DNA of 54,566 nt from Burkholderiales bacterium (lineage in GTDB: Bacteria > Pseudomonadota > Gammaproteobacteria > Burkholderiales > Burkholderiaceae_C): assembly GCA_025358485.1 (NCBI GenBank), contig JANYJJ010000102.1, forward strand, positions 1 to 54,566, read 5' to 3'. The translations under genes and the position numbers were made by a program. Positions within the stretch are counted from its first letter, which is position 1, and each line of letters starts with the position of its first letter. Shown piece after piece: positions 24,753-37,349 of this stretch. The notes beneath the pieces are model-generated. The model had not been told where the DNA came from, ran no database searches, and saw only the letters and a list, made by a program, of their open reading frames with translations.

Positions 24753-25520
24753 TCACGGTTCCTGCCGGTAGTGGTAGGCGTAGGCGTCGGTGAAACCCAA
24801 GCGAAAGTAGATGTGCCGGGCGGCGTGGTTGTCGCTTTCTACTTGCAGGTAGGCGACGGTCGCACCCATGCTGCGTGCTTTGGTGAGCATGTGCCCACAC
24901 AGCATGTTCGCTTGGCCCAGCGACCGATGGGCCGATGCGGTGTAGACATCGTAGAGCCCTACAAACTCCGATTCGGTGGCGATTTGGCCGCAGGCCAGAG
25001 CCTCGCCTTGTGCGTTTTGCACCACAAAAGCGGTGAAAGGAACCGGAGATTCCGCCAGACGCTTGGCCTGCGCGGCACGCTGCGATTCAGGTGAGCCGCG
25101 AAATTCGCCGACGGTTTGGGCGAACACCGATGAGTCAATTTGCTTGATGCAGACGCTCGGTGGCACGGCTGGCGGCGACAGCGCAGCCAACGATGGGCAC
25201 ACCATCACGCGGGTATCGTCGATTTTTGACAAGCCTCGTGCGGCCAGTTGAGCGTCTAAATCTGGGGGTTGGCTGAAAGGCGTGATGCGCACAACCAGCT
25301 GCAGGTCGGCGTGTCGGTACAGCGCGGAGCACAAAGCCAGCTTATCGGCCATCGAACTGACGCCATTGGCAACAGCATTGACGCATCGTGCACGCTTGGC
25401 TTTGCCCGGCGAAAAGCGCACCAACCAGCCGTCCAGCCAGCGTTGTTCGGGCGGCGCGCTGGCGTTCAACCCGGCGTCTTCGATGCGCGACAACAAGACG
25501 GCGTCGAAGTCAGGGTTCAC
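24753..25520 (-). CDS. GNAT-family N-acetyltransferase
   Basis: This 255-residue protein has a C-terminal GNAT acetyl-CoA-binding domain: AFVVQNAQGEALACGQIATE, then YDVYTASAHRSLGQANMLCGHML (a motif A-like segment) and ATVAYLQVESDNHAARHIYFRLGF (motif B). The N-terminal part is a GNAT-like extension with an RWLDGWLVRFSPG segment. It would transfer acetyl groups to an unknown small molecule or protein. It starts with GTG at 25520, overlapping the parA stop as GTGA, so it is co-transcribed with parA. Its link to chromosome partition is positional only. Confidence 0.85.
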   Translation of the reverse strand: MNPDFDAVLLSRIEDAGLNASAPPEQRWLDGWLVRFSPGKAKRARCVNAVANGVSSMADKLALCSALYRHADLQLVVRITPFSQPPDLDAQLAARGLSKIDDTRVMVCPSLAALSPPAVPPSVCIKQIDSSVFAQTVGEFRGSPESQRAAQAKRLAESPVPFTAFVVQNAQGEALACGQIATESEFVGLYDVYTASAHRSLGQANMLCGHMLTKARSMGATVAYLQVESDNHAARHIYFRLGFTDAYAYHYRQEP

Positions 25521-26287
25521 AGCTTGCCTATCCTCTCGACCATTTCTTTGGCGAATTCCACAAAGGCTTGTGCGCCTTTGGAGGATGGGTCGAACACCAC
25601 GCCGGGCAAACCGTAGCTGGGTGCCTCGGCCAAACGCACATTGCGCGGGATGACGGTGTTGAACACCTTGTCGCCGAAGTGCGATTTGAGTTGCTCACTA
25701 ACCTGTTGTTGCAGCGTGATGCGCGGGTCGAACATCACGCGCAAAAGGCCGATGACTTTCAACTCGGGGTTGAGGTTGGCGTGAACTTGCTTGATGGTGT
25801 TGACCAGGTCGCTCAAACCTTCGAGCGCAAAGTACTCGCACTGCATGGGCACGACCACGCCGTGTGCGCTGCACAGGCCGTTCAGGGTCAGCATGCTCAG
25901 GCTCGGCGGGCAGTCGATCAGCACGAAGTCGTAGTCATTCGCGACCGCGGCCAGTGCGGTTTTCAGGCGCTGGTCACGGCGCTCCAAGTCGACCAGTTCC
26001 ACCTCGGCACCGGCCAGCTCGCGGTTGGCACCGACGACGTCGTAACCCGCTTTCTCGGCGCGGGTTCGTGCCTCGGTGATGGACGCGTTTTCCAGCAGCA
26101 CGTCGTACACCGTCAGCTCCAGCTTGCGCTTGTCTACGCCTGAGCCCATGGTGGCATTGCCCTGCGGGTCGAGGTCGACGACCAGCACGCGCTGGCCCAC
26201 TTTGCTCAGGCCGGCGGCCAAGTTGACGGTGGTGGTGGTTTTGCCCACTCCGCCCTTTTGGTTGGCAATGCAGAAGATTTGAGCCAT
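25517..26287 (-). CDS. parA: Chromosome-partitioning ATPase ParA (Soj)
   Basis: This 256-residue deviant-Walker ATPase moves ParB-parS complexes and so segregates the replication origin. The P-loop is IANQKGGVGKTTTTVNLA with the signature Lys near the start; VLVVDLDPQGNATMG is the Walker A' region and VLIDCPPSLSMLTLNGL the Walker B region. The length is typical of chromosomal Soj proteins without an N-terminal helix-turn-helix. It lies with rsmG and mnmG, its usual neighbours near oriC, and parS sites occur in those genes. A GNAT gene follows directly; no parB is found on that side within the window. Confidence 0.95.
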   Translation of the reverse strand: MAQIFCIANQKGGVGKTTTTVNLAAGLSKVGQRVLVVDLDPQGNATMGSGVDKRKLELTVYDVLLENASITEARTRAEKAGYDVVGANRELAGAEVELVDLERRDQRLKTALAAVANDYDFVLIDCPPSLSMLTLNGLCSAHGVVVPMQCEYFALEGLSDLVNTIKQVHANLNPELKVIGLLRVMFDPRITLQQQVSEQLKSHFGDKVFNTVIPRNVRLAEAPSYGLPGVVFDPSSKGAQAFVEFAKEMVERIGKL

Positions 26288-26312
26288 GGTGCGCTGACGG
26301 TTCGGTGGGTGA

Positions 26313-26924
26313 CTAATTTCGGATCAGCCGAATGCTGAACCCAATGAGAAATACACCCGCAGCGCGCTCCAACCAAATGGTGAGACGGCGGCGGGTTTTG
26401 AGTTTTTCAGTCAGCACGTTTGCCACGGCGCACAAGCTGAGGCAGTAAACCGCTGTGATCACAGCGATGGTGACAGCCATGGCGGCAAAGGTCACCGTGC
26501 CTTGGTGAGTGGTGGGGTTGATGAACAACGGGAAGAACGCCATGTAAAAGACGATGGCTTTGGGGTTGAGTAAGGTGATGAAAAAGGCTTGTCGCGCGTA
26601 GTGGTGCGGTTCGATGTGTATGGGCGAGGCCGAGCCTTCTCGAGCGAACAACAGCCTGAAACCTATCCAAGCCAAGTAGGCTGCGCCGCCATACTGAACC
26701 ACTTTGAAAACAGCAGGGTTGGCGGCGAGCAGCGCCGCCACACCGGCAACCGCTGCCCACAGCAGGACTTGATCTGCCGCCATGACACCGAACACCGCGG
26801 CTGCCCCGGCGCCGAACCCACCTTTGGCAGTGGAGTTGATGAGCGCAAAAGTGCCAGGGCCAGGCAATGCCAGGAACAGCAGCACGGCGGCGCAAAAGGC
26901 GGGGAAATCGGAGATGCCGAACAT
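26313..26924 (-). CDS. LysE/RhtB-family amino-acid exporter
   Basis: This 203-residue inner-membrane protein is of the LysE family, which exports amino acids or derivatives by proton antiport. The N-terminal FLALPGPGTFALINSTAKGG matches the conserved LysE motif, and about five to six hydrophobic helices follow, ending VFLIGFSIRLIRN. ATG at 26924 is used; a TTG three codons upstream is possible, and no clear ribosome binding site separates the two. It sits between rsmG (5-bp gap) and parA (25-bp gap), an arrangement common in Burkholderiales. The exported substrate is unknown. Confidence 0.9.
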   Translation of the reverse strand: MFGISDFPAFCAAVLLFLALPGPGTFALINSTAKGGFGAGAAAVFGVMAADQVLLWAAVAGVAALLAANPAVFKVVQYGGAAYLAWIGFRLLFAREGSASPIHIEPHHYARQAFFITLLNPKAIVFYMAFFPLFINPTTHQGTVTFAAMAVTIAVITAVYCLSLCAVANVLTEKLKTRRRLTIWLERAAGVFLIGFSIRLIRN

Positions 26925-26929
26925 GATGA

Positions 26930-27613
26930 TCAAATAAGGGAAGGTTTCATCCAGACCAGACAGCGATCCGCGTTCAGCTTGGGAACGGCCAAATGTTCCA
27001 CGTGAAACACCGTGACATTCGCGGGCAAGTCCGCCATTTCCGTTTCTGGCAATTTGCCTTTCATGGCCATCCAGCAGGCTTCAGAAGCCAGAAGCGGGCG
27101 CGTCAGACTCACAAAATCAACGAGTGAAGCGAATGCGCGCGATGTGATGAGATCGAACGGTGCCAGCTTCAACGATTCGACCCGCGCATGTTCGCCCTGC
27201 AGGTTGCGCAGCTTTAGCTCGGCGGCGACTTGGCGGATGAAGGCGGCTTTCTTGCCAACGGTGTCGACGCTGACCACTGTGACGTTGGGGCACATCACCG
27301 CAATCACCACGCCCGGTAAGCCACCGCCGCTGCCGACGTCCAGCAGCCGCGGGTTGGTCAACGTCGGCGTCTTCAAAAAGTGTTGTTTCAGCGGGTTGAT
27401 CACGGCCATGCAATCGACCAGGTGCTGGATCAACATACCCTGCGCATCGCGGATTGACGTCAAGTTGTAGGTCGCATTCCAGCGTTGAAGCATGGCCAGG
27501 TAGGCCAATAGCGTGTCGGTTTGCGGCTCAGTTAAGTTGAGTTGCAGCGACGCCGCCACCACGAGCAGCGGCTGACGAAGCGCCGATTCCAAAGGAGCGG
27601 CCTCCTCCGTCAA
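26930..27613 (-). CDS. rsmG: 16S rRNA (guanine-527-N7)-methyltransferase RsmG
   Basis: This 227-residue enzyme (formerly GidB) methylates G527 of 16S rRNA with S-adenosylmethionine. The SAM-binding motif is [18 protein letters not shown], followed by [14 protein letters not shown] and the family motif [11 protein letters not shown]. The start overlaps the mnmG stop by 4 bp, the usual mnmG-rsmG coupling. Near the 3' end the gene carries a parS-like site, translated as the peptide VFHVEHL. Loss of RsmG gives low-level streptomycin resistance in many bacteria. Confidence 0.96.
26994..27009. promoter_or_regulatory. parS site (one mismatch) inside rsmG
   Basis: TGTTCCACGTGAAACA differs from the ParB-binding consensus TGTTTCACGTGAAACA at one position. 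It lies in the 3' part of rsmG, close to parA, as part of a three-site cluster. Confidence 0.85.
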
Positions 27614-29652
27614 GCGGCTACTTCCTGTTTGACGGTTTTACGGGTTGCGCCGCCGAATCCTTCAGACCGATGCTTCTTCAAGTGAACCAGCAACAAAGAA
27701 ATGGCCGCTGGTGTGACGCCCGACATTCGTGACGCCAAACCCAAGGTGGCAGGCCGGTGCTTGTTCAGCGTTTGCCGCACCTCAAAACTCAGTGCAGGCA
27801 CCTGGGAATAGTCCAAGTCGGTGGGCAAGGCTAAGTTCTCGTAGTGCGCGACGCGCTCGACCTCTTCCAGTTGCTTGCCGATGTAGCCTGCGTACTTGAT
27901 GCTGATTTCCACTTGCTCGATCACTGAATCGGCAAGCAAGTCGCCCAGCTCGGCGCGCAGTGTTTCACGTGAAACAACATCGCTTGAGCCTGCTGCTGTG
28001 GCCGCCTGCGCCACCGCATCAAAATCAACGGCCGGTCTGCGCAGCAAGTCGGCCAAGCTGTATTCATGCTCAATCGCCTTGCCCAGCAAACGCTCAGCGT
28101 CCAATGCTGTCAACTTGCTCGGGTGCACCCACGTCGATTGCAGGCGCTTTGTTTCACGTGAAACCGCGTCGCGCTTGCGGTTGAAGGCATTCCAGCGCGC
28201 GTCGTCCACCAAGCCCAAGTTGCGCCCTGCTTCGGTGAGACGCATGTCGGCGTTGTCTTCGCGCAGTTGAAGGCGAAACTCGGCCCGGCTGGTGAACATA
28301 CGGTAAGGCTCGGTCACGCCTTTGGTGATGAGGTCGTCGACCAACACGCCCAAATAGGCTTGGTCGCGGCGCGGCAACCAAGCGGCTTGTTCGCGAACTT
28401 GCAGCGCGGCGTTGAGTCCTGCAAACAAACCTTGCGCAGCAGCTTCTTCGTAACCTGTGGTGCCGTTGATCTGTCCGGCAAAAAACAAGCCCTGTATCGC
28501 CTGCGTCTCGAAGGTGGCCCGCAAAGCGCGCGGGTCAAAGAAGTCGTACTCGATGGCGTAGCCGGGCCGCAAGATGTGGGCGTTCTCCAAACCGACCATG
28601 GACTGCACGGCCGCCAACTGCACGTCAAATGGCAGAGAGGTCGAAATGCCGTTCGGATAAAACTCGTGAGTTGTCAGCCCTTCCGGTTCCAGAAAAATCT
28701 GATGCGAAGTTTTGTCTGCAAAGCGGTTTACTTTGTCTTCAATGCTCGGGCAGTAGCGTGGCCCCACGCCCTCGATCACGCCGGTGAACATGGGGCTGCG
28801 GTCAAAGCCCGCGCGGATGATGGCGTGGGTTTGTTCGTTGGTGTGGGTGATCCAGCACGGCACTTGTTGTGGATGCTGGTCGGCGCGGCCCATGAAGCTG
28901 AACACTGGGACGGGGCCGCTGGCCGCTTTTACGTTGCCATTGCCGTCTGAATGCGGCATTCCGTCGCCGGGTTGTTCGGTCAAGACGTTGAAGTTGATGC
29001 TGCGCCCGTCGATGCGCGGCGGAGTGCCGGTTTTCAAACGGCCTTGCGGCAACTTGAGTTCTTTCAATCGGCTGGACAAACGCACGGCAGGTGGATCGCC
29101 CGCCCGCCCTGCCGCGTGGTTTTGCAAGCCGATGTGGATTTTGCCGTCCAGGAAAGTACCGGCGGTCAGCACCACAGTTTTGCAATCGAAGCGTATGCCC
29201 ACTTGCGTGAAAACGCCTGTCACGCGGTCGCCAACCACAATCAGGTCGTCACATGCACCCTGAAAAAGCCACAGATTTTCTTGATTCTCCAGGCGCTGAC
29301 GTATGGCCGCGCGGTACAAAACCCGGTCGGCCTGCGCCCGCGTGGCGCGCACGGCCGGGCCTTTCGAACTGTTGAGGATGCGAAATTGAATGCCTGCTTC
29401 ATCGGTGGCTGCGGCCATAGCGCCGCCCATGGCATCGATCTCTTTGACGAGGTGGCCTTTGCCTATGCCGCCGATGGACGGGTTGCAGCTCATCTGCCCC
29501 AAGGTTTCGATGTTGTGGGTGAGCAGCAAAGTGGCGCAGCCCATGCGCGCAGCGGCCAGCGCGGCCTCGGTGCCGGCGTGACCTCCGCCCACCACAATGA
29601 CATCAAATTTTTTCGGAAAAGAAATCACGGATGACACCGAAGACGAAGACAT
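27610..29652 (-). CDS. mnmG: tRNA uridine-5-carboxymethylaminomethyl modification enzyme MnmG
   Basis: This 680-residue FAD protein (formerly GidA) works with MnmE to modify U34 of several tRNAs. The FAD-binding motif [23 protein letters not shown] opens the protein. [13 protein letters not shown] holds the conserved Cys and Gly patch, and [11 protein letters not shown] and the C-terminal helical region with [18 protein letters not shown]-like sequence are typical. ATG at 29652 ([12 protein letters not shown]) has AGGCAACGC just upstream; a longer in-frame start is not needed. Two parS sites inside the gene appear as Val-Ser-Arg-Glu-Thr in the protein. The downstream rsmG overlaps by 4 bp. 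Confidence 0.97.
27961..27976. promoter_or_regulatory. Perfect parS site inside mnmG
   Basis: TGTTTCACGTGAAACA is a perfect 16-bp palindrome identical to the ParB-binding consensus. It is read within mnmG as Val-Ser-Arg-Glu-Thr. It should nucleate ParB loading for origin segregation with the ParA encoded 1.7 kb away. Confidence 0.97.
28150..28165. promoter_or_regulatory. parS site (one mismatch) inside mnmG
   Basis: TGTTTCACGTGAAACC matches the parS consensus except for the last base and lies 174 bp from the perfect site. It also encodes Val-Ser-Arg-Glu-Thr in mnmG. Confidence 0.88.
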
Positions 29653-29730
29653 GCGTTGCCTAAATTTTGAGCAAGCTGGGATTGTAGGCAGCGGCCCTTG
29701 GGAAGTCACCCCAACCCGGGCTTCGCGCGC

Positions 29731-30051
29731 ATGAACTGTCGCCCTGAATGCGGTGCGTGTTGCACCGCGCCATCGATCTCTTCACCGATTCCCGGTGTGA
29801 CGGCGGTCAACGGCATCAGCAAGGCTGCGGGCGAGCGTTGCGTGCATTTGTTGATCGACCAACGCTGCGCCATTTTTGGTCACCCCGATCGGCCCACCGT
29901 GTGCTCTAGCCTGATGCCCAGCGTGGACATGTGCGGTGAAAACCGCGAGCAAGCAATGTTGTGGTTGACCACGTTGGAGCACCAAACTGCGCCTTCAACC
30001 GCGCTTTCAACTGCGTTTTCAATTGATCCTTCAACTGCCCGACGCAAGTGA
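29731..30051 (+). CDS. YkgJ-type cysteine-cluster protein
   Basis: This protein of about 106 residues has a metal-binding cysteine cluster of the YkgJ/CxxCxxCC type: [15 protein letters not shown] at the N-terminus, [14 protein letters not shown] in the middle and [11 protein letters not shown] later. Such proteins are thought to bind zinc or an iron-sulfur cluster; no function is established. ATG at 29731 fits the family start. The last 20 residues are a Ser/Thr/Ala-rich repeat (Pro-Ser-Thr-Ala type) not usual for the family, and the end overlaps the convergent ABC exporter gene by 21 bp. It is divergent from mnmG. Confidence 0.85.
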
Positions 30052-32178
30052 CCCCGTCCCCACGCTGCGCAAATCCTGCGCAATGCGCCCCTCACTCAAC
30101 ACAATCACCCGGCCTGCTGAGGCAATGGTCTCTGGCCGGTGCGCCACGATCACGCGGGTGATGTTGAGCTGGCGCACGGCCTGGTTCACCAGGCGCTCGC
30201 GGTCAACATCCAAGGCGCTGGTGGCTTCGTCCAAAAACAAAAACTGTGGCCGCTTGTACAGCGCGCGCGCCAACAACAAGCGCTGTTTTTGCCCACCCGA
30301 AATGCTGGTGCCCATGTCTCCAATCAGCGTGTGGTAGGCCATGGGCATGGCCTCGATGTCGTCGCTCACCGATGCCACACGCGCGCACTCTTCCACCCAC
30401 GCGGCGTCGGCTTGCGGGTCGAAGAAGCTGATGTTGTCGCTGATTGAGCCGGCAAACAATTGATCGTCTTGCATGACAGTGGCAAAACTTTCTCGCCAAG
30501 CGCGCAGGCCGAGTTGCTTGAGCGGCACGCCGCCCACCAAGATCTCACCGCGCTGTGGCGCATGAATGCCCAACATGAGTTTGAGCAAGGTGGTTTTGCC
30601 GCAACCCGAGGGCCCGACGATGGCCACCGATTCGCCGGGTTCAATCAGCAAATTCAAGTTGCGCAGCAGGATGGGATCCGATTCGGAATAGCGAAAACCG
30701 ACATCGCGCAGTTCCAAGCGCGGTGCCCTTGTCGCTGCGGCTCCGCCCATGGCGCGCGGCGGCGTCAGCACCTCTTCTTCAGGCGCGGTCAACACGATGT
30801 CGGCCAAGCGCTCGCCTTGCAGCTTGAGCATTTTCAGCTCAACCACTTTGTCGATGAGCCCGCTCACGCGCAGCGCAAATTGCTCTTTGTAGGCAAAGAA
30901 GGCGAACAGCATGCCGACCGAAAAACTTCGGTCCAGCACCAACAGCGCGCCCACCCACACCACCGCAATCCGCTCCAAACCAAACACCAATTTGTGGGTC
31001 ACGCTGAACACCAAATCGAGCTTGCGCGTGGCGATGTGCGCGTTCATTGCGTCGACCACGCGGTTCATGAACTGTGCTTGACGGTCTTCCTGGCGGTTGA
31101 ACAATTTGATGGATTGCACACCGCGCAGCGACTCTAAAAAGTGGCTGGACTTTTTAGCGTCAAACACGATGGCTTCTTCGGTTGCTTCGCGCAGCGGTCG
31201 AAAAAACGCCCAGCGCAGCAGCGCATAAACCACCACACAGGCGAGTGCAATGGCGGTGAGCGTGCCGCTGTAAACCCACATCATGGCCAGCGTCAACACC
31301 ACCAACAAACCGTCAAGCACGGCCTCAATAAAGTGCGTGGTCAGCGTCTGTTGAATTTGCTGCACCGCGCCGAAGCGCGACATCACGTCGCCTGTGTGTC
31401 GCTTCTCAAACCACGGCATGGGCAGGCGCATCAAATGCGCGAACACATTCGACAACCACTGCAAGTTCAACGTGGCCGACAAATACAACACCGCCCAAGA
31501 ACGGATGGCACCGGTGGCCACTTGTATCAACACCAACAGGCCAAACCCCAAACCCAGTGTGACCAGCAAATCGCGGTCGGCGCTCACCAACACGCCGTCC
31601 ACCACCCACTGCATGAAAAACGGCGACAGCAACATGAAGGCTTCGAGCGCCAACGCCAAAGCAAATATTTGCAGCAGCGAACGCTTCAGCCCGGTCACGC
31701 GGCCCAGCAGTTGGCGCAGTGTGACGGTTTGCTTGCGCACCTTGGGTTTGAAGTCGGCCGCAGGCGTCAGCTCTAACACCACCCCGGTGAAGGCTTTCGA
31801 CACCTCGGCGGTGCTCAGGCGTCGCACGCCGCGCGCGGGGTCGTGAACCACCGCGCCTTTGGACGTCACCTCAGTCAGCACCACAAAGTGGTTCAGCTCC
31901 CAGTGCAGCACGCAGGGCAATTGCAATTGCGACAAGTGACTCAGCTCAGCGCGCAGCGCACGTGGGGTGAAGTGCAATTGGGCGGCGATGCGCGTCAGGT
32001 CGGCCAGGGTCGCGCCCTTCAGCGACAGCGGGAAGCGTTTGCGCAAAGTGGGCAGGTCAGTCACCAAGCCGTGGCAAGCGGCGACCATCGCCAAACAGGC
32101 CAAGCCGCACTCGGCAGCCTCGGTTTGCAGCAACATCGGCGCGCGTGGTTTGAACCAACCGAAGTGAAGCGCCGCCAT
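30031..32178 (-). CDS. C39-peptidase-containing ABC exporter of double-glycine peptides
   Basis: This 715-residue protein combines an N-terminal C39 peptidase, a six-helix ABC membrane domain and a C-terminal ATPase, the layout of exporters such as CvaB that cleave double-glycine leaders while exporting the peptide. The catalytic set is complete: Gln18 and Cys24 (LLQTEAAECGLACLA), His97 (LNHFVVLTEV) and Asp113 (VVHDPARG). The ATPase has Walker A GPSGCGKTT, signature SISGGQKQRLLLARAL and Walker B FLFLDEATSALD. ATG at 32178 overlaps the HlyD stop by one base (TGATG). The substrate is very probably the small GG-leader peptide at 33563-33709 in the same transcription unit. Confidence 0.95.
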   Translation of the reverse strand: MAALHFGWFKPRAPMLLQTEAAECGLACLAMVAACHGLVTDLPTLRKRFPLSLKGATLADLTRIAAQLHFTPRALRAELSHLSQLQLPCVLHWELNHFVVLTEVTSKGAVVHDPARGVRRLSTAEVSKAFTGVVLELTPAADFKPKVRKQTVTLRQLLGRVTGLKRSLLQIFALALALEAFMLLSPFFMQWVVDGVLVSADRDLLVTLGLGFGLLVLIQVATGAIRSWAVLYLSATLNLQWLSNVFAHLMRLPMPWFEKRHTGDVMSRFGAVQQIQQTLTTHFIEAVLDGLLVVLTLAMMWVYSGTLTAIALACVVVYALLRWAFFRPLREATEEAIVFDAKKSSHFLESLRGVQSIKLFNRQEDRQAQFMNRVVDAMNAHIATRKLDLVFSVTHKLVFGLERIAVVWVGALLVLDRSFSVGMLFAFFAYKEQFALRVSGLIDKVVELKMLKLQGERLADIVLTAPEEEVLTPPRAMGGAAATRAPRLELRDVGFRYSESDPILLRNLNLLIEPGESVAIVGPSGCGKTTLLKLMLGIHAPQRGEILVGGVPLKQLGLRAWRESFATVMQDDQLFAGSISDNISFFDPQADAAWVEECARVASVSDDIEAMPMAYHTLIGDMGTSISGGQKQRLLLARALYKRPQFLFLDEATSALDVDRERLVNQAVRQLNITRVIVAHRPETIASAGRVIVLSEGRIAQDLRSVGTGSLASGS

Positions 32179-33449
32179 CAAAGGCGCCCGGTCACGCTGA
32201 GCAGCGGCTCGAAAATCCACTCAATCAAACGTCGGCGTTCGAGCAACACATCGGCGTCGATCTGCATGCCCGCCGCAAGTGCTTGGTTCTGCCCGTAAGC
32301 GCGCACCGACTGCTCGCTCAAGGCCACGGTGATGCGGTACATCGGCTCGGCAGCGGCATTGGTTTTCAGCGCTTCAGGCAGCGGCAACGTGGCCAGATCG
32401 CTGCTTTGCAAAGGCGTGCGCGACACCTGCAAAACCTGGCCCGCGTGGTGGCCAAACTTTTGGTAGGGGAAGGCTTGGTAACGCAACTGCACTGACTGAT
32501 CAGGACGCAAAAAACCCACCGCGCTGGACGGCGCAAACAACTGCGCTTGCAGCTTGGCACCTTGTGGCAACAGGCTGACCATGGCCGCGTTGGCCGCCAC
32601 CGTTTGGCCTACATCGCTCATCACGGCAGTGACCACACCGTCTTGCGGCGCACGTATGACCACGCGCCGACGTACTTCGTTTTCAGCCGCCTCTTGCGCC
32701 AAGCGGGCCAGGTCGCGGCCGATTTCGCCTTGCTGGTTTTGAGCGCGCAGTGGCAGCTCGCGGCGCTGTGCGTCCAGCACTTCCACTTCGCGTTGCTTGG
32801 CCGCACGCTGGCGTGCGACGGCTTGAACTTGCGCCTTCACGTTCAGCGCTTCTTCTGAGCGTGCTTGGACTTGGGCTTGCGAAATGAAGTTGTCAGCGCG
32901 CAGAGATTCAACGCGCGCTTGCGCTTGTTGCGCCAACAGCAGCCGCTGGTTTTGAAGCTCGGCCTCAACGTCGAGCTGGGCCATCTCGCGGCGCAGCGCG
33001 TCGAGTTGTTTGTCGAGTCCCGACCTCTGCGCCTGCTCCAACAAGGTCTGTCGGCGCGCTGTCACTTGCAGGCTCTGTTCTCGCTCGTTGAGCCGAGTTT
33101 GCACCGCAGCTTGGGCGTCGATCCCCAACGTGGCGCGGTCGGTGGACACGACGAACAACACGTCGCCTTGTTTCACCACCTGACCTTCTTGGGCCTGCCG
33201 CTCCAACACCGTGCCCCCTTGCGGAGACACCAAGCGCAACACGCCTTTGTCGGGCATGAGGTAGCCCGTAACGTGCGCCTTGCGGGTGTATCGACCTTCC
33301 ACCAGCGCAACACCGACCAAGCCCACCACCACGAGCGCACTGCCAGTGAGAACTGTCAACGACACCGGCCGTATGAGCTGTATCGATCCCAACCAAGCCT
33401 GCTGTTGACCCTGGATTGACTCAGGGCGGAAGAGGGAGGTGGGTTTCAA
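32178..33449 (-). CDS. HlyD-type membrane fusion adaptor for the peptide exporter
   Basis: This 423-residue adaptor has one N-terminal membrane helix (VSLTVLTGSALVVVGLVGVAL) and a biotinyl-lipoyl half (GTVLERQAQEGQVVKQGDVLFVV). A long coiled-coil hairpin rich in Gln, Arg, Glu and Leu covers about residues 120-250, followed by the second lipoyl half (VVIRAPQDGVVTAV) and a beta-barrel. It bridges the ABC exporter to an outer-membrane TolC-like duct encoded elsewhere. The start appears to be TTG at 33449 with AGGGA four bases upstream; no ATG lies before the membrane helix. It sits 113 bp after the GG-leader peptide gene. Confidence 0.93.
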   Translation of the reverse strand: MKPTSLFRPESIQGQQQAWLGSIQLIRPVSLTVLTGSALVVVGLVGVALVEGRYTRKAHVTGYLMPDKGVLRLVSPQGGTVLERQAQEGQVVKQGDVLFVVSTDRATLGIDAQAAVQTRLNEREQSLQVTARRQTLLEQAQRSGLDKQLDALRREMAQLDVEAELQNQRLLLAQQAQARVESLRADNFISQAQVQARSEEALNVKAQVQAVARQRAAKQREVEVLDAQRRELPLRAQNQQGEIGRDLARLAQEAAENEVRRRVVIRAPQDGVVTAVMSDVGQTVAANAAMVSLLPQGAKLQAQLFAPSSAVGFLRPDQSVQLRYQAFPYQKFGHHAGQVLQVSRTPLQSSDLATLPLPEALKTNAAAEPMYRITVALSEQSVRAYGQNQALAAGMQIDADVLLERRRLIEWIFEPLLSVTGRL

Positions 33450-33530
33450 TGAGTCCCTGCGCTTTCAGCCCAATCTTTTCCTGATCAAACCGCGCCTTGC
33501 GATGACCAGTTGGTCTGGGCTACAAGCTCA

Positions 33531-33550
33531 TTGCGCCGATGTCAGCGCAA
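33531..33550 (-). promoter_or_regulatory. Hairpin between peptide gene and exporter genes
   Basis: TTGCGC-8 nt-GCGCAA is a perfect inverted repeat 13 bp after the peptide stop codon. It has no T-tract, so it is more likely an RNA-processing or partial-termination structure that sets higher peptide than exporter expression. The function is inferred. Confidence 0.4.
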
Positions 33551-33562
33551 CGGGTCAGCGAT

Positions 33563-33709
33563 TCACCAACCGCCATTGGGGCCGCTGGTGACGCCACCAG
33601 CAATTTGCGCCAACAGCGCTTCGTCAAGAACGACAGGAGTTTCAGCCCCCAGCACGAAGACGCTCGCAACAGTTGCCAGTTCGATGGAAACATTCAGTTC
33701 TTGGTTCAT
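33563..33709 (-). CDS. Double-glycine leader peptide, predicted secreted nonapeptide precursor
   Basis: This 48-residue gene is normally missed because of its size. ATG at 33709 has GGAG seven bases upstream. The leader ends LDEALLAQIAGG, with hydrophobic residues at -4 (Ile), -7 (Leu) and -12 (Leu) relative to the Gly-Gly, which is the C39 recognition pattern. Cleavage after Gly39 would release VTSGPNGGW, a nine-residue C-terminal peptide. The gene lies between a LuxR-type regulator and the HlyD and C39-ABC exporter genes, all on the same strand, and a lux-box dyad lies 78 bp upstream of the start. The core is far too short for a typical microcin or bacteriocin, and no immunity gene is visible, so a signalling peptide is the best guess. 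Confidence 0.82.
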   Translation of the reverse strand: MNQELNVSIELATVASVFVLGAETPVVLDEALLAQIAGGVTSGPNGGW

Positions 33710-33786
33710 GTCAGGCTCCGAGAGTTGCTAAAGATGCACTACCGTTAGTACACAAAGCTATTGAAGCAGGACGTGTGTTTTCCGAG

Positions 33787-33806
33787 AACTGTCAACTCTT
33801 ACAGCT
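33787..33806 (-). promoter_or_regulatory. lux-box-like dyad upstream of the peptide gene
   Basis: On the plus strand this reads AACTGTCAACTCTTACAGCT, matching 16 of 20 bases of the perfect box at 34627-34646 and keeping the CTGT-N8-ACAG core of LuxR sites. It ends 78 bp before the peptide start, between luxR and the peptide gene. A LuxR site centred near -42 would put transcription start near 33754. Confidence 0.75.
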
Positions 33807-33845
33807 TGCGTTAAGCCGCTTGGTCGTTTAGGACTGTGCGAAAAA

Positions 33846-34559
33846 TCACTTTAGTAATCCCATGCGCAGTGCTTTCAGCACGGTTTGGTGCTTGTTACCA
33901 CAGCCTAATTTTTGCGCAGCATTGGTCAAGTGCGAAACGGCGGTTCTTTCGGTGATGCCCAAGATGCTGCCCGCCTCCCAGGCGGTTTTCCCCTCCATCG
34001 TCCAACGCAGGCATTCCAGCTCGCGTGGAGTCAAACTCGGGACATTTGGGTCGGGTGATTGAGGCAGCAGAACACGGTGTGCGGCATGCTGCGCATGAAC
34101 GGCAAACAACTGCAGGTCGGCAACCAGACGGGTCAGTTCGTCAGGATGTTTAGGCAAAGGCTGGTCGCGGTCGACGCCTAGAAAAAAATGTTTGCCCTCT
34201 GGTAAGTGCAGCGCCATCGCTATCCCCGTTTGATAGCCGAACTGCGCCTGCTGCTCCCACTTGGCTCCCAAGCCGATTGCTGTGTATGTTTTTTGATCCC
34301 AAATAATCGGGACGCTTTGGCGCTTGCAATGTTGCATTACTGGATCAACGCGCCAATTCGACTTGTCCGAAAAACTCTCCCGGTAGCTCGCAGGCGTGTT
34401 GTCCAAGGTGATGAACTCTGCGTCTCCCAGCATGTGGTCGATGATGGTGGTGGCAGACACAGTCTCAAATCCCAAGTTCTGAGTGAACCGGACGATTTCT
34501 GAGAGGAGCTGATCGCGATCCCCTGCTTCCAACACTGACGTGTAACTCTGTTGCAGCAT
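33846..34559 (-). CDS. LuxR-type regulator with autoinducer-binding domain (solo)
   Basis: This 237-residue protein has an N-terminal autoinducer-binding-like domain and a C-terminal LuxR helix-turn-helix (SLTPRELECLRWTMEGKTAWEAGSILGITERTAVSH at about residues 175-210). By eye the acyl-homoserine-lactone pocket keeps the Asp-Pro (72-73), Trp87 and Gly112 counterparts of TraR D70, W85 and G113. The TraR W57 and Y61 positions are Tyr59 and Phe63. No luxI lies nearby, so it is a solo. GAGAG lies just before the ATG at 34559. Two lux-box dyads flank the gene, one upstream of the peptide gene and one in the divergent region, suggesting it regulates both and perhaps itself. Confidence 0.93.
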   Translation of the reverse strand: MLQQSYTSVLEAGDRDQLLSEIVRFTQNLGFETVSATTIIDHMLGDAEFITLDNTPASYRESFSDKSNWRVDPVMQHCKRQSVPIIWDQKTYTAIGLGAKWEQQAQFGYQTGIAMALHLPEGKHFFLGVDRDQPLPKHPDELTRLVADLQLFAVHAQHAAHRVLLPQSPDPNVPSLTPRELECLRWTMEGKTAWEAGSILGITERTAVSHLTNAAQKLGCGNKHQTVLKALRMGLLK

Positions 34560-34626
34560 TTGCTCTCAATCACTGTCTGTCTGGCATCGAACCTTGTTGC
34601 GCGGTGTTACGCGCTTTTGCCGGTCA

Positions 34627-34646
34627 ACCTGTCAGTTCTTACAGGT
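34627..34646. promoter_or_regulatory. Perfect lux box between luxR and the divergent gene
   Basis: ACCTGTCAGTTCTTACAGGT is a 20-bp dyad with perfect 6-bp arms that match the classical lux box pattern ACCTGT-N8-ACAGGT. It lies 67 bp upstream of luxR and 73 bp upstream of the divergent gene at 34720, so it could serve both directions. Confidence 0.85.
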
Positions 34647-34719
34647 GGCAAAAATCGCCGCCTGCAACACACTCAAGCCATCGCAAATCATTGCATCGAA
34701 CGCAATTGGAGACCGCATC

Positions 34720-35094
34720 ATGATCCCCGCCTGGATTGTCTATTCCTGGCCCCCCGTATTGTGGCAGGCCCTTGGTGTTCCCTTGTTCAATTTTGGTCAT
34801 TTGGGAACGCGAGTGCTGTCTGCGGGCAACGCCCACAACCCGTGTTCAGGACAGACTGTTTGGGGTCGCTCCTCAGATGAAGGTGCAGCCGGTGTGGCTT
34901 GGGACTGGGTGCAGCTTCAAGAAGGGGTTGTGGCGATGGCCGACCCCATGGGTTTGATCACCAATTTGCGCATCGTTGATGAGCACGGCGACGCCTTGCC
35001 TGCGCTCAGCGCCAGCTTGCACTTGAACGAAATCGTGCACGCGCTGCCGTGGCAAACCGAGGTGCAGCGCGCCCTGCAACACGAAGCTCACTGA
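34720..35094 (+). CDS. Hypothetical protein under a lux box
   Basis: This 124-residue protein is not recognised. ATG at 34720 follows TTGGAG with a good spacing. The N-terminus is rich in Trp and hydrophobic residues (MIPAWIVYSWPPVLWQALG), and the middle has GVAWDWVQLQEGVVAMADPMG. It has no classical signal peptide, no double-glycine leader and no LuxI features. A perfect lux box lies 73 bp upstream, at nearly the same distance as the box in front of the peptide gene, so it is probably co-regulated with the peptide system by the LuxR protein. A role as an output or modifier of the system is inferred only. Confidence 0.65.
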   Translation: MIPAWIVYSWPPVLWQALGVPLFNFGHLGTRVLSAGNAHNPCSGQTVWGRSSDEGAAGVAWDWVQLQEGVVAMADPMGLITNLRIVDEHGDALPALSASLHLNEIVHALPWQTEVQRALQHEAH

Positions 35095-35148
35095 GCGACG
35101 TGCGCACACCGCGCGGTGCCAGCAGCTTCGTCTGAGAACTGACCCACA

Positions 35149-35170
35149 AACATCGCGTTGATGCGATGTT
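35149..35170 (+). terminator. Hairpin after the lux-box-controlled gene
   Basis: AACATCGC-gttgat-GCGATGTT is a perfect 8-bp stem with a 6-nt loop, 55 bp after the stop of the hypothetical gene. No T-tract follows. A 12-bp palindrome, CACCGCGCGGTG, lies just before it at 35107-35118. Confidence 0.4.
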
Positions 35171-35246
35171 GACCGCTGGCTTGTGTCGGCATCATCGAGG
35201 TCAGTTTCGGGCAGTGGGTGCATGGTGCGCTTGCGCCCCGACGTTA

Positions 35247-35306
35247 GACCACACCCGCGACCGCACCCGCGACCGCACCCGCGACCACACCCACAACCAC
35301 ACCCAC
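35247..35306 (+). repeat. Five 12-bp tandem repeats abutting the diguanylate cyclase start
   Basis: Five units of the form GACCRCACCCRC run without a break up to the ATG at 35307. They are in frame with the gene, and if translated would add Asp-His-Thr-Arg/Asp-Arg-Thr-Arg/His-Thr units. No ribosome binding site is visible between the repeat and the ATG. Confidence 0.9.
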
Positions 35307-37349
35307 ATGTCTTTGAGTCAAGTCACGCCCTGGTTACGCGACTGGGTTGCCACGCTCAAATTCAAGATCATGGCGATGGCCATCGTCACTGCCGTGCTGT
35401 CGGCCGCAGTGACCACGCATTTGGTGTTGACCACCAACCAAGCCGATTTGCAGCGACTGCTGCTGCGCCAAGACGCTGACGACAGGGAGCGCACCGCAGC
35501 GTTGCTCAGCACCAAGATTCAACTGCTCTCCACAGCCCTCGCCGCAGTGGGTGGACGCATCACACCCGTCATGCTGGCAGACCCCGCCGCCGCATCGCTG
35601 TACTTACAAGACAAACCTGCGCTCACCGCGCTGTTTGACTCTGTCTTCGTGGCATTGCCAAGCGGTCAAGTCCCGATCCGTTTTCAGCGCGGTGTGCCCG
35701 ACACCACGGCCCCGAATGTGCGTGACCGCGACTACTTTCAGCAGGTCATGAAAACAGGCTCAGCGACCGTCTCTGGGGCCATGGTCGGACGCAACAGCAA
35801 AGTACCGATCGTGGTCTTCGCGGTGCCCGTCAAGTCGGCAGAAGGGGTGGTCATTGGCTGCCTTGGCGCGGCCTTGCATCTGCGTGAAAACAGCATCCTT
35901 ACCAGCCTCAGTCGTGAGCAAAATTTGGACCGCGCGGTGGACATGGTGATCGACGCCAAAGGTCGGGTCTTGGCGCACACCGATGGCGCGCGGCTCATGG
36001 GCGCGGCTGCAGATGAGCCCGGATTTGCCGAAGCGTTTGGTCAATGGGTGGCCAATGGCAGCACCTTCCACGCGGAGGGAACTGCAAAGCTTTCGCAGGG
36101 CGCGCACATCGTGTCCATGGCGGGTTTGACCTCGGCCGATTGGATGGTGGTGCGCATCACGCCTGAAGCCGTGGCCTTGCAACCCTTGATGGCTGCCCAA
36201 GCTACCGCGCGTCGCGTGGCCGCAGTGGTCGGGCTGTCAGCGGCGCTGGTGGCCGCGCTGTTTGCCTGGTTCGTCACCCAGCCCATTGGCGATTTACGCC
36301 GACGCGCGGAGCGGGCGCTGGTCGAACGCGACAGCAGTCAGCCAGCAGACCACGAAGGCTGGCCCAGCGGGCGCAGTGAAGTGGGCCAACTGGGCCGCGC
36401 GTTCCAGCACGTGATGGTGCAGCGCCAGCAACGCGAGCAAGAAACGCAAGCGTTGTTGCGTCAATTGGAAGCTGTGCTCGACAACGCTGAAGTGGGCATT
36501 GCGTTCTCGCGCAGCAGCAAATTTGAGCTGGTCAGCCGCAATTTGTGTCGCATGCTGGGCTTGGACAAATCACAAGTCACGGGGCAGTCCACTCGCTTGA
36601 TTTACCCGTCTGAAGAAGCCTATGTGGCACTGGGCGAGCGGGCGCGCCCGGCCTTCATGTTGAACGGAACTTTCGAGGGCGAGGTGCAATTGGTGCGTCG
36701 CTCGGGTGAGACTTTCTGGGCCCACATGCGAGGTCGCGCGTTGGTCGCTGGTGACACCTCGCAGGGCACCATTTGGATCATTCAGGACGTCACCCATGCG
36801 CGTGAGCAACGCGAGCGCCTGACCTGGACAGCCAGCCACGATGCCCTCACCGGCCTGGCCAATCGCCCCAACTTCGAAGTGCTGCTGGAGCAAGCCACGC
36901 AGCATGCGCAGCAGTACCCGTTTTGCGCGCTTTTCATCGACCTCGACCGCTTCAAGGAAGTCAACTACACCGCCGGTCATGCAGCCGGTGACGCCCTGCT
37001 GCGCGATATCGCACAAAGGCTCAGTGCTGAAGTGCGGCAGTCCGACACCGTGGCGCGCTTGGGCGGCGACGAATTCGCCGTGCTCTTGCACCGTTGCCCA
37101 CCGGCACAGGCATTGGCTGTTGCCGAGAAGTTGCGCGCTGCGGTAGAAGCCTATGAACTGGTCTGGGAAGCGCGCCGCTTGACCGTGGGCGCGAGCATCG
37201 GTTTGGTGTCGGTAGACACCTCGTTCACATCGCACGTGGACGTGCTGCGCGCGGCCGATTCGGCCTGCTATGCCGCCAAACGCGGCGGGCGCAATCGCGT
37301 GGCCCAGTATTCGCGCGATCTGCCCACCGACCAGCGTCCCGGGCGCTGA
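35307..37349 (+). CDS. Membrane diguanylate cyclase with Cache, PAS and GGDEF domains
   Basis: This protein of about 680 residues starts with a membrane helix (MAMAIVTAVLSAAVTTHLVL). A periplasmic Cache-like sensor follows to about residue 300, with RDYFQQVMKTGSATVSGAMV and GVVIGCLGAALHL, then a second helix (AAVVGLSAALVAALFAWFV), a HAMP linker, a PAS domain (AVLDNAEVGIAFS) and a GGDEF domain. The catalytic motif LGGDEF is intact, and RQSD five residues before it matches the product-inhibition I-site. It should make cyclic di-GMP in response to an extracytoplasmic ligand. The true start is uncertain: ATG 35307 begins the membrane segment, but a 12-bp repeat tract lies in frame directly before it. 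Confidence 0.92.
   Translation: MSLSQVTPWLRDWVATLKFKIMAMAIVTAVLSAAVTTHLVLTTNQADLQRLLLRQDADDRERTAALLSTKIQLLSTALAAVGGRITPVMLADPAAASLYLQDKPALTALFDSVFVALPSGQVPIRFQRGVPDTTAPNVRDRDYFQQVMKTGSATVSGAMVGRNSKVPIVVFAVPVKSAEGVVIGCLGAALHLRENSILTSLSREQNLDRAVDMVIDAKGRVLAHTDGARLMGAAADEPGFAEAFGQWVANGSTFHAEGTAKLSQGAHIVSMAGLTSADWMVVRITPEAVALQPLMAAQATARRVAAVVGLSAALVAALFAWFVTQPIGDLRRRAERALVERDSSQPADHEGWPSGRSEVGQLGRAFQHVMVQRQQREQETQALLRQLEAVLDNAEVGIAFSRSSKFELVSRNLCRMLGLDKSQVTGQSTRLIYPSEEAYVALGERARPAFMLNGTFEGEVQLVRRSGETFWAHMRGRALVAGDTSQGTIWIIQDVTHAREQRERLTWTASHDALTGLANRPNFEVLLEQATQHAQQYPFCALFIDLDRFKEVNYTAGHAAGDALLRDIAQRLSAEVRQSDTVARLGGDEFAVLLHRCPPAQALAVAEKLRAAVEAYELVWEARRLTVGASIGLVSVDTSFTSHVDVLRAADSACYAAKRGGRNRVAQYSRDLPTDQRPGR

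Follow-up and report, generated by a model that had tools for sequence, protein, structure and literature searches.

LuxR proteins are the textbook receptors of acyl-homoserine lactones, and we know of no ligand for many of the solo LuxR proteins. The question raised by the locus described here is what a LuxR-type receptor senses when its neighbours are a gene for a short double-glycine peptide and the genes for a HlyD/C39-ABC exporter. The locus lies in the window, by which we mean the whole stretch of 54,566 nucleotides that was analysed. The initial annotation of this DNA had suggested a C39-exported signal linked to the LuxR-type gene. This suggestion is supported by the sequences, which tie the peptide to LuxR more strongly than that annotation proposed: the motif of the peptide stays with luxR where leader and exporter are absent beside it, and its variable residues covary with the receptor pocket. 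We consider it very likely that the LuxR-type receptor works with its own ribosomally made peptide in place of the luxI signal, in an autoinducing circuit, with ligand binding suggested by co-evolution.

The peptide gene and its neighbours

The genes and motifs of the locus are listed in Table 1. The proposed gene of 48 codons with a ribosome binding site is real and is read from the minus strand, which had been left unstated. Its product is MNQELNVSIELATVASVFVLGAETPVVLDEALLAQIAGG followed, after the predicted cleavage point, by VTSGPNGGW. The leader has the pattern of C39 substrates (hydrophobic residues at -4, -7 and -12, GG or GA at -2/-1), in agreement with the earlier description: Leu stands at -12 and -7, Ile at -4 and Gly-Gly at -2/-1. 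No Pfam or NCBIfam family matched the peptide at E<=1.

Table 1. Positions of the genes and sequence motifs of the locus within the window.
Feature	Position	Strand	Basis or remark
C39 peptidase-ABC exporter gene	30031..32220	minus	domain match
HlyD-type membrane fusion protein gene	32178..33449	minus	domain match; TTG start as listed
Peptide precursor gene, 48 codons	33563..33709	minus	leader (codons 1-39) and tail VTSGPNGGW; reading frame
Conserved hexapeptide unit GPNGGW (xPxxxW)	33566..33583	minus	comparison of relatives
Double-glycine leader, codons 1-39	33593..33709	minus	end LDEALLAQIAGG; compared with the leader profile of relatives
Ribosome binding site CGGAG	33716..33720	minus	GGAG 6 nt 5' of the ATG of the peptide gene
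Lux-box-like palindrome CTGTAAGAGTTGACAG	33789..33804		upstream of the peptide gene
luxR-type receptor gene, 237 aa	33846..34559	minus	autoinducer-binding domain and GerE HTH
Lux-box-like palindrome CTGTAAGAACTGACAG	34629..34644		between luxR and the rsaM-like gene
rsaM-like gene (DUF4902)	34720..35094	plus	divergent from luxR; PF16245 match

The position of the peptide gene between a LuxR-type gene and the HlyD/C39-ABC exporter is borne out by domain assignments (PF03472 and PF00196 for the autoinducer-binding and GerE domains of LuxR), and the gap between luxR and the peptide gene amounts to 136 bp. The exporter had been credited with a Cys-His-Asp set, residues of the C39 domain that we take to be catalytic. 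Alignment of this domain with PCAT1 (4ry2) finds Cys, His and Asp all in place. The RsaM-like protein matches PF16245 at E 1.2e-4, under the gathering cut-off, and 12 of the 13 aligned RsaM-like homologues match this family at E<=0.01; the sole PDB match of the window protein is Burkholderia BCAM1869 (4o2h), at E 0.12. No dedicated peptide importer was seen at the locus, and neither an importer nor a proline iminopeptidase was found among the five locus proteins scanned, while the own genome contains seven SBP_bac_5 matches, which are candidate oligopeptide importers. No Rfam matches were obtained within window positions 30000-36000 and no tRNA genes within the window.

Two lux-box-like palindromes flank luxR, and no further ones were found in the window with two mismatches allowed (chance 0.06). 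In 76 of 101 loci, the first 130 bp after luxR contain a CTG-N10-CAG palindrome (shuffle mean 5.1), and the 220 bp before luxR do so in 76 of 101 as well (shuffle mean 7.6). With a loose lux-box pattern, the own genome yielded four sites outside the locus versus six for the reversed control. A tighter pattern applied to ten other genomes gave 16 sites, 14 at luxR loci and two elsewhere, with no site in one genome. On these site counts, the circuit seems chiefly to regulate itself.

Two minor features were noted by eye in the surroundings. ORFs resembling ParA, RsmG and MnmG lie just past the exporter (25517-29709), a grouping that is usual near a replication origin. A GGDEF-like ORF begins with a short tandem repeat of the cacccgcgaccg type, at 35247-35310.

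Occurrence of the peptide motif with and without an exporter

Queried with the window LuxR, a sample of 399 genomes from the same family gave matches in 101, representing 38 of 141 genera (E<=1e-40; own genome counted). In three genera chosen for already holding a homologue, it was present in 11/11, 16/16 and 7/8 genomes. Among 399 genomes sampled across the order, only three matched at E<=1e-50: the own genome, a second member of its family and a member of a different family (locus L289). No LuxR matches were found on plasmids at E 1e-30, and five matches to viral contigs were limited to the HTH region.

The set of loci for comparison comprised 100 fetched stretches, 80 named loci (from Rhizobacter, Piscinibacter, Roseateles, Methylibium, Paucibacter, Mitsuaria, Rubrivivax, Ideonella, Leptothrix and others) and the window, in total 181 loci with 146 distinct luxR genes. 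HlyD follows luxR in 103 of the 146 distinct loci; all 103 have C39 and 97 have an rsaM-like gene. Across these relatives, the order rsaM-like gene, luxR, peptide gene, HlyD, C39-ABC is a conserved unit. Leader peptides were sought between luxR and HlyD with the pattern [LFM]..[VILAFM]xG[GAS] plus a Pro-bearing tail. A candidate was found in 103/103 HlyD loci by scored search and in 102/103 by the plain test (shuffle mean 3.6). The leader with Gly-Gly or Gly-Ala is thus kept beside the same luxR and C39-ABC genes; position -12 is Leu or Ile in 101 of 103 relatives with a leader peptide, while the conservation at -7, -4 and -2/-1 follows by construction, as the search pattern demanded these residues. 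The precursor frame is under coding selection, with an NG86/JC dN/dS of 0.41 (pN 0.174, pS 0.357) over 25 close, non-overlapping pairs.

A leader combined with a P-x(1-4)-W tail is present in 95 of the 103 HlyD loci (shuffle mean 0.85, max 3; reverse strand 0). In these 95 tails, Trp forms the exact end in 81, lies within the last three residues in 11 and is internal in only three. The remaining eight exporter loci have no Trp, and their tails are of the LPRVG, LPRVS or LPRIGG forms. As a side observation on these loci (L058, L061, L160, L166, L170, L186, L193, L197), two matching tail copies are present in 4/8, and LuxR residue 75 is Leu in 8/8.

Two to five xPxxxW units are held by 44 precursors, with linkers that vary from species to species (by eye). 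The three residues between Pro and Trp are the same in the first and last copy in 39 of these 44 (permutation mean 4.4, max 14). Between species these residues vary: APKSTW occurs twice in one precursor, GPNGGW five times in another and LPRGTW four times in a third. By comparison of relatives, the conserved unit is the hexapeptide xPxxxW, of which the window precursor has a single copy, GPNGGW. The predicted nonapeptide tail stands insofar as VTSGPNGGW follows Gly-Gly; the unit kept in relatives, however, is its last six residues and not all nine. Since the repeated and conserved unit has six residues, the nonapeptide is best regarded as the expected product of cleavage after Gly-Gly, and the hexapeptide as what selection keeps.

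The 43 distinct loci in which HlyD does not follow luxR are informative in another respect. Sixteen have a leader peptide, five are on contigs that end too early, and 22 have neither HlyD nor a leader peptide in at least 300 bp after luxR. In 15 of these 22, an ORF of 9-43 aa lacking a leader and ending in the motif is found within 300 bp after luxR, versus 0.12 in shuffles (max 2), 0.49 at random places (max 3) and 0 on the reverse strand. Examples are MICLPRVGW, MQVLLPRNAW and MQAVKTVSTRPVQLPRAGW, and most of these ORFs have a purine-rich ribosome binding site. An extra fetch of 39 stretches (six already in the set) again found leaderless peptides beside luxR homologues of 39-46% identity, such as MTSYPRVGW and MTSFPRVGF, along with the hydrophobic forms MKLIDFVCELLGLPKLGG and MWKLIAEVFGLPYTGG. 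The motif in the distant loci is looser, with PxxGG endings in some peptides, and several of these loci were read by eye. L057, L118, L128, L272 and L289 yielded no recognisable peptide ORF. In one locus (L279), two consecutive leaderless ORFs, MQHPTNQAPGFPRVGF and MTSFPRVGF, follow a single luxR and have the same end. On the comparison of loci with and without an exporter, the tail motif goes with luxR and not with the exporter.

The leaderless forms have no evident export route beside luxR, which makes their secretion doubtful; judged from these loci, secretion may not be required everywhere. It may even be asked whether the peptide is a LuxR ligand that acts inside its producer, C39 export serving for removal or timing rather than for cell-cell signalling. 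LuxR proteins are cytosolic, and such a role would suit the leaderless versions of 9-43 aa found after luxR, without a neighbouring HlyD gene, in related loci. Yet HlyD and C39 stand beside the leader peptide in 103 of 146 loci, costly equipment for a ligand that never leaves the cell, and the short leaderless pheromones of Gram-positive bacteria are exported too. We regard the confinement of the peptide's action to the producing cell as unlikely.

The receptor pocket and its covariation with the peptide

The structure model of the window LuxR (pLDDT 86.3) matches the structures of QscR, RhlR, LasR and SdiA. Across 90 loci, hexapeptide distance correlates modestly with the distance of the LuxR ligand domain (r=0.27). 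The partial Mantel correlation with HTH, HlyD, C39 and RsaM removed is r=0.20 (p=0.001, n=90), whereas none of these four was significantly related to the hexapeptide with the other proteins held. Pocket residues of LasR were taken from PMC10613653, PMC7466078 and PMC12718213 and mapped onto LuxR. The 12 variable pocket columns are enriched in covariation with the peptide relative to the other 107 variable columns of the ligand domain (p=2.5e-4 for maximum z and 2.5e-3 for mean z; n=112). The corresponding controls, two tests with leader positions and 12 with RsaM columns, gave no significant enrichment (lowest p 0.12).

Three pairings account for the clearest part of the pattern. The first involves LuxR 69 (LasR 70), which is absent from the list derived from the papers and which we take to be a pocket residue. 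Where this site is Gly, position 5 of the peptide has a side chain in 40/40 cases; where it is W, M, Y, F, Q, H, R or I, position 5 is Gly in 47/47. A, S, C and N follow neither rule consistently. The second concerns LuxR 100 (LasR F101): K or R at this site is accompanied by K or R at peptide position 3 in 0/24 cases, L, M, I or V at this site in 72/86. In the third, 15 of 18 cases of Phe at LuxR 126 (LasR A127) have Gly as the first residue of the hexapeptide. The window, with W69, K100, F126 and GPNGGW, satisfies all three.

Independent contrasts were drawn on an ancestry tree of 112 tips, built from the non-pocket LuxR columns together with C39, RsaM and HlyD. For LuxR 69, 18 contrasts agreed, none opposed and 11 were unchanged; the respective counts were 12, 0 and 6 for LuxR 100 and 10, 0 and 1 for LuxR 126, all with splits picked after viewing the pairing table. 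A pairing of LuxR 114 with position 1, strong in that table, was unsupported in the contrasts (2 agreeing, 0 opposed, 18 unchanged) and was discarded. When the entire protein was scanned openly, with 546 splits for each peptide position, columns 69, 100 and 126 came out on top for positions 5, 3 and 1-Gly, respectively; the tops for positions 1-Leu and 4 were weak. The rules for residues 69 and 100 were obeyed in 13/13 new near loci with xPxxxW (14 less L257, APRPIW), which come from two genera and thus represent few independent lineages; one new locus, L258, violates the Phe126-Gly1 rule. Taken as covariation, the pocket residues of LuxR track the hexapeptide in a manner that reads like a recognition code.

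These data also bear on the view that the ligand of LuxR is a small molecule, be it an acyl-homoserine lactone or a different one, with the peptide as an antagonist or chaperone of the receptor. The LuxR fold is retained, and the counterparts of LasR D73 and W88 (D72 and W87 in the window LuxR) are kept in 83/87 and 86/87 near homologues; this, together with luxI located elsewhere in the genome in 5 of 55 system genomes, leaves some room for lactone sensing. The full lactone-contact set (LasR W60, D73, W88, S129), however, is not conserved among the 87 near homologues: W60 is replaced by Tyr or Phe in 77 (Trp kept in six) and S129 by Gly in 84 (Ser kept in one). Moreover, luxI is absent from 50 of the 55 system genomes, and PF00765 was not found in the own genome (86% complete), which also speaks against a lactone circuit with a hidden luxI. 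The pocket residues track the peptide, although antagonism in the same pocket is conceivable. Altogether, this view appears distinctly improbable.

The combination of a double-glycine leader, HlyD and C39-ABC is the usual export set of bacteriocins, and with a lux box upstream, the gene might encode a bacteriocin or another effector merely under LuxR control. The kept unit, however, comprises six residues, the window tail is nine residues long and not of bacteriocin size, and neither an immunity gene nor any other plausible gene was found by eye from luxR to the exporter. We rejected a bacteriocin as the main reading because the motif follows luxR even where no exporter stands beside it and because the covariation of the tail is confined to the LuxR ligand domain and does not extend to C39 or HlyD; it is, in our estimate, very improbable. 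The idea that the covariation reflects the shared ancestry of two co-inherited genes 136 bp apart, rather than binding, has the least to commend it and is scarcely credible in view of the unopposed contrasts on a tree free of pocket columns (18:0, 12:0, 10:0), the emergence of columns 69, 100 and 126 from the whole-protein scan, and the lack of pocket enrichment in the leader and RsaM controls.

A putative peptide circuit and its relation to known systems

The autoinducing circuit of LuxR and its own peptide may operate as follows. The peptide gene would occupy the place of luxI. The C39 exporter would cut the precursor after Gly-Gly and, together with HlyD, send out VTSGPNGGW, which, as such or trimmed to its GPNGGW end, could re-enter through a general oligopeptide importer, for which candidates exist. 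Inside the cell, the peptide would take up the pocket in which ordinary LuxR proteins bind their acyl-homoserine lactone, as the co-evolution suggests. The loaded LuxR would then act at the two lux boxes, one before the peptide-HlyD-C39 genes and the other between luxR and the rsaM-like gene, and by acting at both, presumably as an activator, it would close the feedback loop. From what is known of RsaM biology, the RsaM-like protein may restrain this loop. Each lineage would possess its own hexapeptide dialect and a matching receptor pocket.

On a wider scale, we think it likely that many genera of one Gram-negative family share a peptide language in which LuxR reads xPxxxW in the former lactone pocket by a simple code of size and charge, with dialects by lineage. 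The leaderless forms would be this signal with the exporter missing, and additional tandem copies of LuxR, which have other pocket residues, may hear the dialects of neighbours. The change of the peptide in step with the receptor pocket across species points to a new peptide language in Gram-negative bacteria.

Parts of this arrangement resemble established systems. In ComA/ComC-type systems, a double-glycine pheromone is cleaved and exported by a C39-ABC protein and sensed by a membrane histidine kinase. The leader and the exporter are alike, but at this locus no such kinase was seen, and the partner that co-evolves with the peptide is LuxR. In Rgg/SHP and other RRNPP systems, the gene of a cytosolic regulator lies next to that of a short peptide, which in many cases begins with hydrophobic residues and has a conserved C-terminus. 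The likeness lies in this pairing of gene-encoded peptide and cytosolic regulator; the receptors there are of the TPR type and Gram-positive, whereas here the receptor is of the LuxR type and the host Gram-negative. LuxI/LuxR systems with RsaM (e.g., in Burkholderia and Acinetobacter) share the LuxR fold, the lux boxes and rsaM beside luxR; in contrast, the present locus has no luxI, a peptide gene and exporter follow luxR, and W60 and S129 are changed. A review of RsaM lists a type with a divergent rsaM and luxR solo, and the word peptide is absent from its main text.

The closest functional parallel is the PipR/OryR class of LuxR solos, in which a LuxR-type receptor has been reported to respond to a peptide. 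According to PMC4981722, PipR responds to Ser-His-Ser and needs an ABC transporter; its inducer is exogenous (plant macerate, peptone, or the tripeptide at high concentration), and its gene lies beside peptidases and an importer. A later review lists an ethanolamine derivative as the PipR ligand (PMC10134790). In that class the inducer comes from outside, whereas here the bacterium encodes both the peptide and the exporter. No gene-encoded peptide partner of a LuxR receptor was found in the open-access literature as covered by titles and the starts of abstracts, and motif strings were not found there either.

If true, a LuxR family with a peptide ligand encoded by its neighbour would join the peptide signalling of Gram-positive bacteria to the LuxR world and would show how a lactone pocket can become a peptide pocket. 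The ligands could then be ordered as synthetic peptides, and the recognition code would be testable by single substitutions.

Two further observations concern the wider set of luxR loci. Seven loci (L088, L089, L091, L101, L067, L257, L258) contain tandem arrays of at least two luxR genes or pieces of them. By the pattern used, a peptide ORF follows just one copy per array, and the extra copies have different pocket residues (letters approximate), as if tuned to other dialects. Five distant luxR loci (L274, L275, L281, L282, L286) have a different common box, CTACCAGGGTTTGTAG, and their leaderless hydrophobic peptides end, as read by eye, in GLPYTGG, GFPVTGS or similar.
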